Origin: Haloplanus sp. CK5-1
GTDB taxonomy: Archaea; Halobacteriota; Halobacteria; Halobacteriales; Haloferacaceae
Direction of reading: 5' to 3'
DNA: 64,000 nt
NCBI RefSeq assembly: GCF_037201915.1
Contig: NZ_CP147505.1
Coordinates: forward strand, 806,001 to 870,000
Part shown: piece after piece, positions 7,061 through 11,792 of the stretch
How positions within the stretch are numbered: the stretch's first letter is position 1
Layout of the letters: every line of letters begins with the position of its first letter
Notes under the pieces: model-generated
Told to the model about the DNA's origin: nothing
Database searches by the model: none
Seen by the model: the letters and a program-made list of their open reading frames with translations, nothing else
Position numbers and translations under genes: made by a program

Positions 7061-7243
7061 ATGGAGCGTGTGACACTACGAATTCCGAAACAGCAGATCG
7101 AGGAGGTCGAACAGATGGTGGAGACGGGAGAGTTCCCGAATCGAAGTGAAGCCATCCGGTCGGCCGTCCGCGAGATGCTTAACGAACAGAGCGAGTCCCG
7201 CGACGACAACCGCAAACGCAACCGCAGCTGGGCGAAGGTGTAG
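7061..7243 (+). CDS. cdrS: CdrS ribbon-helix-helix cell-division regulator
   Basis: A 60-residue RHH protein: beta strand [20 protein letters not shown], then [14 protein letters not shown], and a basic tail. The ATG at 7061 is chosen over longer upstream starts because the RHH domain begins there and the extra upstream stretch is the operator-rich leader. The stop is 3 nt before the ftsZ2 ATG, matching the cdrS-ftsZ2 operon known from haloarchaea, where CdrS controls division genes. It may autoregulate through the TGTAAGAC sites upstream. Confidence 0.9.
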
Positions 7244-7246
7244 ACG

Positions 7247-8416
7247 ATGCAGGGATTCGTCCAAGACGCCATCGAGCGCGAGGAGGAAGAGCAGCGCGAC
7301 GCCGACGAGGGCGACGACTTCGGCGATCCGCGGATCGTCATCGTCGGGGCCGGCGGTGCCGGGAACAACACGGTCAATCGGCTGTACAACCTCGGTGTCG
7401 ACGGCGCCGAGACCATCGCCATCAACACCGACAAACAGCACCTGAAGATGATCGAAGCCGACACCAAGATCCTCGTGGGCAAGTCGCTCACGCAGGGGCT
7501 CGGTGCCGGTGGCGACCCCTCGATGGGCGAGCGTGCGACCGAGATGGCCCAGGGGACGATCAAGGAGGTCCTCGGCGAGGCCGACCTCGTGTTCGTCACC
7601 GCCGGCATGGGCGGTGGGACCGGTACCGGTGCCGCCCCCGTCGTCTCCAAGATCGCCAAAGAGCAGGGTGCGATCGTCGTCGGCATGGTGTCGACGCCGT
7701 TCAACGTCGAGCGCGCCCGCACGGTCAAGGCCGAGGAGGGACTCGAGAAGCTCCGCGGCGAGGCCGACTCGATCATCGTCCTCGACAACAACCGCCTGCT
7801 CGATTACGTCCCCAACCTGCCGATCGGCAAGGCGTTCTCGGTGATGGACCAGATCATCGCCGAGACGGTCAAAGGGATCAGTGAAACCATCACCCAGCCC
7901 TCGCTGATCAATCTGGACTACGCGGACATGTCCACGATCATGAATCAGGGAGGCGTCGCGGTGATGCTCGTCGGCGAGACCCAGGACAAGAACAAGAGCC
8001 AAGAGGTGGTGAGCGACGCGATGAACCACCCGCTGTTGGACGTGGACTACCGCGGCGCGTCCGGTGGACTCGTCCACATCACCGGCGGCCCCGACCTCAC
8101 GCTCAAAGAGGCCGAGGGCATCGCCAACAACATCACCGAACGACTGGAGGCGAGCGCCAACGTCATCTGGGGTGCGCGCATCCAAGAGGAGTACAAGGGC
8201 AAGGTCCGCGTCATGGCCATCATGACCGGCGTCCAGAGCGCCCAGGTGCTCGGACCGTCGACCCAGCGACAGGCGGAGAAGTCCCGCAAGAGCCTCAACG
8301 GTGAGGACGTTTCGGAATTCGACGCGAGCGAGAATGTCGGTCAGGACCAGGCGTCCTGGTCGGACGGTGGTCGCGATCAGATCGACCAGCGCAACGGCGT
8401 CGACGTCGTCCGGTAG
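7247..8416 (+). CDS. ftsZ2: Cell-division GTPase FtsZ2
   Basis: A 389-residue tubulin-superfamily GTPase. It has the N-terminal acidic extension typical of FtsZ2, [13 protein letters not shown] (nucleotide loop 1), the signature [12 protein letters not shown] near residues 119-130, [15 protein letters not shown] (H7 region) and [14 protein letters not shown], whose aspartates complete the active site in the next subunit. The C-terminal domain ends [22 protein letters not shown], followed by a variable tail. FtsZ2 acts with FtsZ1 in the haloarchaeal division ring and drives constriction. It is co-transcribed with cdrS. Confidence 0.96.
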
Positions 8417-9487: not shown

Positions 9488-10192
9488 ATGGATCGGGACG
9501 CCGCACTCGACCGGGCCGCCGAGATCGTCGACTGCGTGGAGCGAAGCGCCACGGACGACCCAACCGGCGCCGCCGACCGTCCGACGGCGTCCGACGCCGA
9601 TCCACCCCTCCTCCCGGTTCCCGTCCGCGAGGTGTGGGTGTACGGCGACGTCGCCCTCGGTCTCGATCCGATCGACCGCCTCGACGTGTACGTCACCAAG
9701 GACCTCCTTATGCGCGGCGACGCCGACCGCGAGGCCGAGTTCGAGGCACAGTACGGCGTCTCGGGGGTCGGCAAGAGCGTCGACGCCGACTGGGCCGCCG
9801 CCTACCCCGAACACGTCCGGGCCAACGACAACGGCCACGCCGCTCCCGAACGGTGTCTCGCCGCTCACCTCCTGGACGACGACGAACCGATCCACCTCGA
9901 AGTGTGCAACGCCTCCTTTTCGGACAACGTCACCCAGCGTCTGAAGGGAGCGATGGCCCGGGAGAACTACGAACAGATCCTCGACCCCCGCGGCGTCTGT
10001 CTGTGGGCCGACGGCCGCCGCGACGACGACGCGATGGCGAAACTCCGCGGGGGCGAACTCGCCTTCCCGACCCTGTCGGAGGCTCTGGAGATGCTGGGGC
10101 TCGACGAGGCCACCGCCGCCGAGGCCGCCGACGTGATGCGGGCGCGCCGGGCCGAGGAGACGGGGCGGACGGTCCGTGGCGACGTGGTGTAG
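9488..10192 (+). CDS. Uncharacterised haloarchaeal protein in front of the FtsZ-like gene
   Basis: A 234-residue soluble protein starting at ATG 9488; a GTG at 9479 is an alternative. The recognisable core is VREVWVYGDVALGLDPIDRLDVYVTKDLLM (about residues 42-72) followed by a conserved-looking segment with CLAAHLLDDDEPIHLEVCNASF. I do not know its function. It is divergent from ncsA with a 77-bp gap and lies 11 nt before the FtsZ-like gene at 10204, so the two are probably one transcript. Confidence 0.75.
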   Translation: MDRDAALDRAAEIVDCVERSATDDPTGAADRPTASDADPPLLPVPVREVWVYGDVALGLDPIDRLDVYVTKDLLMRGDADREAEFEAQYGVSGVGKSVDADWAAAYPEHVRANDNGHAAPERCLAAHLLDDDEPIHLEVCNASFSDNVTQRLKGAMARENYEQILDPRGVCLWADGRRDDDAMAKLRGGELAFPTLSEALEMLGLDEATAAEAADVMRARRAEETGRTVRGDVV

Positions 10193-10203: not shown

Positions 10204-10986
10204 ATGCCGATCCCCGACGTCGGTCGTTCTGTGTCGGACGACACCGCGGATCCGGCGTGGACGCCCTCGGTCTCGGTCGTCGGCCTCGGCGACGCCGGCA
10301 CCGAGACGGTCGACGCGGTCACCACGCCGACGGCGACCACGTTCGCCACCGTCGACGGTCCGGACGACGCGGCCGCGGTCGCGGCCTCGGTCGCGGCCGA
10401 CGACTTCTGTTATCTCACCGGCGACGTGAGCGACCCGGCCGTCGTCGACGCGGCCGAGACGATACTGGACGCCACCGAGGGACACACCTCCTTCTTCCTC
10501 GAGGGGACGACCGACCGGCCCGAACCGATCGTCGAGGGCTGTGACTTCCTGCTCCCGATCGATCCCGACGCCGCGCCGCCCCCCGACGGTCGGGCACTCG
10601 TGGCGAGTGCGATCGTCGACTGCGCCGAGGCGATGCTCCGGCCGACCGGTCAGGATCTCGGGTACGGCGACATCCTGCTGGCGACCCGATCCGGCCGGAT
10701 CGGATCGCTTCGGGTGGCGGCGATCGGCGGTCTCCAGCATCCCCTGACCGACCGCGTCGACGTGACCGATCCGGACGGCGTGCTCCACTTCCTCTGTGGC
10801 GACGAGACCCTCTCTCACACGTTCGCCGACGTGCGGGGATCCCGCCGCTCCCGGGAGTATCCGGACGCCAACGAGTTCCTCTGGGATCGACGCATCCACG
10901 ACCGCTACGGCGACCCAGCACACGTCAAGACGATCACCACCGTCGCCGCCGACGCCGACCGTCGGGAACGGCTCCTGCGATCCTGA
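10204..10986 (+). CDS. Degenerate FtsZ/tubulin-fold protein lacking GTP-binding loops
   Basis: The 260-residue product lines up with the FtsZ2 encoded 1.8 kb away along its whole length. SVSVVGLGDAGTETVDAV matches FtsZ loop 1 ([15 protein letters not shown]). DDFCYLTGDVSDPAVVDA takes the place of the GGGTGTG signature block. CDFLLPIDPD matches the H7 entry and QDLGYGDILLATRSGRIG matches the [14 protein letters not shown] loop. GVLHFLCGDETLS, FLWDRRIHDRYGDPAHVKTITTVA matches the C-terminal domain. The glycines and catalytic aspartates needed for GTP hydrolysis are missing or altered, so it is probably a non-catalytic paralogue. The relationship is from my manual alignment and was not computed. 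Confidence 0.65.
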   Translation: MPIPDVGRSVSDDTADPAWTPSVSVVGLGDAGTETVDAVTTPTATTFATVDGPDDAAAVAASVAADDFCYLTGDVSDPAVVDAAETILDATEGHTSFFLEGTTDRPEPIVEGCDFLLPIDPDAAPPPDGRALVASAIVDCAEAMLRPTGQDLGYGDILLATRSGRIGSLRVAAIGGLQHPLTDRVDVTDPDGVLHFLCGDETLSHTFADVRGSRRSREYPDANEFLWDRRIHDRYGDPAHVKTITTVAADADRRERLLRS

Positions 10987-10991
10987 CGCCG

Positions 10992-11792
10992 TCACTCGGG
11001 GACGTGCCCGACCGTCACGTCGAAGGGCACCACCTCCGCGCGGCGGTACGTCCCCGCCCGCATCGCCGCGACCACTTCGCGACCCATCTCCCGCCACGCC
11101 GCCCGGAGGTCGTCGTACTCGTCACCGACCGCCCGCTTGAGCTCCGTCTCGTGGTCGGCCAACCCCGCTCCGGTCGCCTTCCGTGTCGCGTCCTGCAGGT
11201 CACCCTCGTCGTACGGCGGTTCGATCACCTTCCGGTGGTAGTGGCGGCGCGTCGTCACGCCGACCAGCCCCGCCGCCTCGAACGCCTCGACCGTCCGGTC
11301 GCCGAGCGCCACGTCCGTCTCGACACCCTCGAGGTACGCCTCGCGGACCCGACGCTCCAGGTCGACCTCGCGGTCGACCGTCGACTCGACGGCCACGTCC
11401 GCGTTGTCGGGTTCGACGGCGGCCACGGCGTCGGCGGCGACACGGTGGAACTCCCGGACCGCCGCGTCCGGTCGCGGCAGGTTGACGAGCAACGCCTGAC
11501 ACGCGACGAGGTCGGCCGCGCCGTCACCGAAGGGGAGCCGAGTGGCGTCACCGGCGACGACCGGCAGGCCGGTCTCCTCGCGGGCGGCGACGAGGAGTTC
11601 GGGATCGGCGTCGACGCCGATCACCTCGGCGTCGCCCGCCTCCTCGTCGAGAACGCGGGTGAACTCGCCGGAGCCACAGCCGACGTCGAGCACCCGGTCT
11701 CGGTCCGGCAGGTCCAGGGCGTCGAGTGCCGCCCGCGACGACCACAGGCCCGCCCGCGTCCGTCGGAGGTAGTCGGCCGAGAATCTGCGCAC
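10992..11792 (-). CDS. Class I SAM-dependent methyltransferase
   Basis: A 266-residue protein from GTG 11792. The Rossmann-fold SAM motif is VLDVGCGSGEFTRVL (residues about 34-48), followed by EVIGVDADPELLVAA (acidic ribose-binding residue) and GDATRLPFGDGAADLVAC, typical of UbiE/type-11 methyltransferases. The substrate cannot be told. The start is only 29 nt from the end of the upstream minus-strand nuclease gene, which suggests co-transcription. It converges with the FtsZ-like gene, leaving 5 nt between stops. Confidence 0.85.
   Translation of the reverse strand: MRRFSADYLRRTRAGLWSSRAALDALDLPDRDRVLDVGCGSGEFTRVLDEEAGDAEVIGVDADPELLVAAREETGLPVVAGDATRLPFGDGAADLVACQALLVNLPRPDAAVREFHRVAADAVAAVEPDNADVAVESTVDREVDLERRVREAYLEGVETDVALGDRTVEAFEAAGLVGVTTRRHYHRKVIEPPYDEGDLQDATRKATGAGLADHETELKRAVGDEYDDLRAAWREMGREVVAAMRAGTYRRAEVVPFDVTVGHVPE

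Follow-up and report, generated by a model that had tools for sequence, protein, structure and literature searches.

Does the open reading frame that lies a short way beyond ftsZ2 in Haloplanus sp. CK5-1 encode a relative of FtsZ, and does its position carry meaning for cell division? An earlier note on this DNA had described the product as a pseudo-GTPase of the FtsZ family that could regulate FtsZ1/FtsZ2 assembly, and had given weight to its place near ftsZ2. The window referred to below is the whole stretch of DNA that was analysed, 64,000 nt in length. The locus comprises the following features.

7061 to 7243, plus strand: cdrS-like ribbon-helix-helix gene (ORF), upstream of ftsZ2
7247 to 8416, plus strand: ftsZ2, intact, with GGGTGTG and NLDYAD (Pfam PF00091 and PF12327; TIGR00065)
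9488 to 10192, plus strand: DUF7095 gene (Pfam PF23378, E 1.3e-109), conserved across the genus (12 of 12 genomes)
10204 to 10986, plus strand: coding sequence of a predicted FtsZ2-derived pseudo-GTPase, 260 aa (ORF, family alignment, FtsZ2 homology)
10992 to 11792, minus strand: gene resembling SAM-methyltransferases by sequence, convergent, which adjoins DUF7095 directly in 10 congeners

By ORF calling the reading frame of interest is intact and starts with ATG, and its base composition is coding-like (GC 0.706, GC3 0.866). It takes the place of the intergenic region, separated by 11 bp from the DUF7095 gene and by 5 bp from the methyltransferase gene, and co-transcription with DUF7095 is possible. 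Both ftsZ1 and ftsZ2 of the host are intact; the link between cdrS and ftsZ2 has been described (PMC7439475).

Within the genus the ftsZ2/ncsA/DUF7095 block is kept in 11 of 11 congeners, with an ncsA-like gene and the ftsZ2 region beside DUF7095, and 10 of the 11 have the methyltransferase gene immediately after DUF7095, ~100-250 bp away. The window gene is absent from the site in all 11 congeners, as judged in 10 from the adjacency of the flanking genes and in the remaining one (G002) from the lack of any family match genome-wide. At two of these loci (L058 and L063) an IS-like sequence begins at the DUF7095 stop codon, the very spot occupied by the window gene; it resembles an IS200/IS605 end. 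The window gene is, judging from these comparisons, an insertion at a permissive site between the DUF7095 and methyltransferase genes. Because it is missing at the site in every congener, its proximity to ftsZ2 is a coincidence and not a conserved association, and the meaning earlier read into this neighbourhood falls away.

Relationship to FtsZ2

No Pfam or NCBIfam model matches the candidate even at E 10, TIGR00065, PF00091 and PF12327 included; none of the ten family members is matched by the tubulin/FtsZ Pfam models, and PHROGs holds no family for the candidate. The relationship emerges from a profile made of the ten family sequences only, with no FtsZ included. This profile scores FtsZ2 at 18.9-23.0 bits, far above the best of ~300 unrelated proteins (2.6 bits), the one FtsZ1 compared (5.0 bits) and CetZ (at most 5.8 bits). 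The profile search that had been proposed as a check on FtsZ kinship thus favours FtsZ2 and not CetZ. Across the phylum, a genome search with the family profile matches FtsZ in 16 other genomes at E 2.4e-5 to 6.6e-4; the non-family matches at E <= 0.001 are ORFs of 366-438 aa, all aligned over the same profile span, and each of the seven inspected is a genuine FtsZ. FtsZ2 in genome G039 is matched at E 3.8e-4 in a single-sequence search, and when 40 relatives are searched at lower stringency, the top two non-family matches are FtsZ2 (E ~0.005). The direct two-sequence comparison of the window protein with the window FtsZ2 gives E 0.004, suggestive at most. In the profile-profile comparison the score is 30.5, and none of 200 column-shuffled controls scores above 26.3. 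A search of the PDB returns an FtsZ chain as its top match, a weak one (E 0.05); the Zbm binding protein, a marginal PDB match at E 0.09-0.16, was treated as chance.

Identity of the family to FtsZ is 12-17% in the multiple alignment. Collinearity with FtsZ is found over H7, T7 and the C-terminal domain, and the earlier observation that the FtsZ blocks follow one another in the right order is borne out. At the level of sequence, these comparisons show common descent of the window protein and FtsZ2. AlphaFold2 gave a pLDDT of 38.6 with the candidate and one relative only, and of 35.8 in a deliberately biased rerun with the C-terminal half of FtsZ2 added; since neither run yielded a confident model, we infer the tubulin/FtsZ fold from homology. 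The following landmarks can be placed on the gene.

10282 to 10311, plus strand: T1-like glycine motif GLGDAGTETV, its three glycines invariant in the family
10405 to 10425, plus strand: S4 strand FCYLTGD (LVFVTAG in FtsZ2), with T2/T3 deleted before it and the T4 GGGTGTG missing after it
10654 to 10674, plus strand: T7 loop DLGYGDI (NLDYADM in FtsZ2), the first catalytic Asp replaced by Gly (G153) and the second (D156) kept
10873 to 10944, plus strand: C-terminal S9-S10 block EFLWDRRIHDRYGDPAHVKTITTV, carrying many family-invariant residues

Set against archaeal FtsZ2, for example that at 7247-8416 of the window, the protein is collinear in the T1 glycines (GLGDAG, all three retained), S4, H7, T7 and S7 to S10, and shares an IW(G/D)xRIxxxY motif in S9-S10, whereas it lacks a stretch of ~55-60 residues with T2 and T3, the T4 tubulin signature GGGTGTG, T6, part of H8, the first T7 Asp and the FtsZ2-like C-terminal peptide. 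The absence of GGGTGTG, correctly noted before for the window protein, extends to all aligned family members, and the loss of T2, T3, T4 and T6 is common to every one of them. Because T3, T4 and T6 are lost, loss of GTP binding is predicted. The catalytic aspartates, earlier described as gone, are gone only in part: the first T7 Asp is Gly in all members, but the second acidic residue is retained, as Asp in nine of ten members and as Glu in G505.

The family hallmark, LWDxR...RY....H.K, falls in the S9-S10 region. Many of the best-conserved residues (W19, the D and R of WDxR, R234, H240 and K242) are not signature residues of FtsZ. The window copy holds 27 of the 27 residues invariant in the ten-member alignment and lacks a C-terminal tail that is present in four island members. 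The predicted product is a heavily reduced FtsZ2 relative without the GTP-binding loops.

Distribution and genomic setting of the family

By profile search the family is carried by eight of ~520 haloarchaeal genomes. Its members, 31-40% identical to the window protein, are found in the congener G003, in Haloferax sp. Q22 (two copies), on plasmid pCBA1220-02 of Halarchaeum sp. CBA1220, and in G170, G463, G385, G490 and G505. Some genomes hold second copies, and fragments occur in G463, G490 and G209. The family resides mostly in low-GC islands or on the plasmid, the relatives' islands and plasmid being away from ftsZ2, and five of the surrounding regions have a GC content of 0.50-0.57. A poly-gamma-glutamate-hydrolase-like protein is a recurrent neighbour (6 genomes), and there is no consistent division gene among the neighbours. 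No integrases or element ends were identified at the family loci, and searches of viral contigs and phage records yielded no relative.

The distribution is that of accessory genes carried as cargo by plasmids and integrated elements. The family is a small, rare and undescribed haloarchaeal one that, as its genomic settings indicate, has spread horizontally via mobile DNA. The claim of novelty stands: Pfam and NCBIfam hold no model for the family, and the papers searched contain no description of it, of an FtsZ-derived protein without a GTP site or of an FtsZ-derived inhibitor of FtsZ. Very probably the window gene belongs to an FtsZ2-derived family that lost the nucleotide-binding half, was spread by mobile DNA and was inserted at the window site.

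Two members (L045:7782-8924 and L047:8358-9482) carry ~130 additional aa at the N terminus, a domain that looks helical from its sequence; for one of the two it was checked against Pfam and had no match there. In G463, a protein at L051:3423-5228 joins a protein kinase domain to domains 2 and 3 of EF-Tu/EF1A, the GTPase domain being absent; the kinase portion is similar to PD-T4-6 defence kinases.

Possible functions

FtsZ regulators in archaea are few. Because the family resembles FtsZ2 specifically, the earlier suggestion of a regulator of FtsZ1/FtsZ2 is plausible. The protein would no longer bind GTP and would no longer self-polymerise. What it kept, namely H7, the T7 loop with one Asp and the C-terminal domain, would make up a large part of the face with which one FtsZ subunit meets the GTP pocket of its neighbour, and this retained face would most likely bind the exposed GTP face of FtsZ2. 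Once bound, the protein would be a one-sided cap or filament poison that could not be elongated and could not bring GTP hydrolysis to completion, and division would be slowed or arrested. On islands, an element or a defence module would hold division in this manner during replication or response, and the chromosomal copy in the window would represent a domesticated or leftover form.

Capping of FtsZ2 is favoured, as a leading guess from homology, because the similarity is FtsZ2-specific and the T7 Asp is kept. Against it counts the docking face itself, which is incomplete in the window protein, as H8, beside T7, is shortened. The missing C-terminal tail and FtsZ2-like C-terminal peptide of the window copy, and the lack of a recurring division gene among the family's neighbours, weigh on the same side. 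Since H8 is shortened and the conserved residues are strongly family-specific, there is room for a different partner. The proposed origin and the capping mechanism, taken together, have somewhat less than an even chance. A mobile element may use the gene as a tool against host cell division. The wider proposal that haloarchaeal mobile elements use an FtsZ2-derived pseudo-GTPase as a dominant-negative subunit, or as a bait for attackers of FtsZ2, is tentative and rather doubtful. If FtsZ2 is bound, the FtsZ1/FtsZ2 division ring could be probed with a naturally occurring dominant-negative protein, and mobile elements would be building division inhibitors from the host's own cytoskeleton; were the dominant-negative reading true, a tubulin-superfamily pseudo-GTPase would be acting as a division regulator.

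In bacteria, inhibition of FtsZ by phage and toxin proteins is well documented (PMC13423816, PMC3961180, PMC5624674). T7 Gp0.4, lambda Kil, DicB and CbtA are like the window family in being carried on mobile DNA or toxin modules and in acting on FtsZ, the proposed target of the window family; they differ in being small and not FtsZ-derived, and their action on FtsZ has been shown, whereas that of the window family is deduced.

The many top-conserved residues outside the FtsZ signature would also fit a repurposed pseudoenzyme without FtsZ contact, for instance one with a role alongside the calcineurin-like phosphoesterases. Genes for the latter are recurrent, being adjacent to the family member in G463, G385 and the Halarchaeum plasmid and nearby in G505 and Haloferax sp. 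Q22; yet two dissimilar types are involved, their strand varies, and they are lacking both around the window gene and in the G003 region analysed. Such a role gives no obvious reason for the kept T7 acidic residue, and we consider it fairly unlikely.

Defence-type genes adjoin some members, with an Mrr endonuclease and an AbiJ N-terminal-domain-like gene near that of G003 and an ApeA N-terminal domain near that of G490; by sequence, the AbiJ-N-terminal-like protein recurs in three genomes. The family could accordingly be defence-island cargo, a sensor or decoy whose FtsZ2-like surface mimics the host protein and catches or detects viral FtsZ-binding inhibitors. In its favour, a complex of FtsZ with a phage protein is known to set off immunity in bacteria (PMC13423816). 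Against it, the family has no PADLOC model match and no constant effector partner, and no defence gene lies in the immediate block around the window copy. We also know of no haloarchaeal virus inhibitors of FtsZ2, and a sensor or decoy is unlikely, more so than a repurposed pseudoenzyme.

That the window copy is a non-functional remnant, the decaying passenger of an old insertion, would agree with the fragments in three genomes, with its lack of the tail that some relatives have and with the lack of element genes around it, but is very improbable given the intact ORF, the full set of invariant residues despite the low identity to relatives, and a host-like codon-position composition that fits either a donor of high GC or a long stay in which no stop codon arose.

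Other tubulin-superfamily proteins

CetZ shares with the window family a tubulin-superfamily origin and the glycine-rich first loop, and differs in showing no significant similarity past the first glycine motif; no full-length similarity was found by hhalign (16-19 columns) or HMM (<=5.8 bits). A survey of the archaeal tubulin superfamily describes non-canonical members with a patchy distribution (PMC9856176), and the portion of it consulted has nothing matching the window family. The FtsZ-like giant proteins of the Tubulin_2 family (PF13809) are likewise non-canonical tubulin-superfamily proteins in archaea, but exceed 1,100 aa, have a recognisable tubulin GTPase motif and form a family separate from the window protein. 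One giant tubulin-superfamily protein that matches Tubulin_2 is encoded in G463 (L044:15489-18983), 5.4 kb from a family member. In the genome of the window itself (G000), two ORFs of giant size with weak tubulin matches are present at L007 and L008; the giants are ~1,160-1,175 aa.

A conserved protein of ~236 aa, confined to one genus (L050:7313-8023 in G134; also G198 and G093), is weakly related to the first half of the family. These proteins (L023) were rejected as family members, as they match the first half only and themselves have no FtsZ match; they could be another degenerate relative. Their gene lies downstream of that for a 629-aa protein resembling PIN-domain ATPases.
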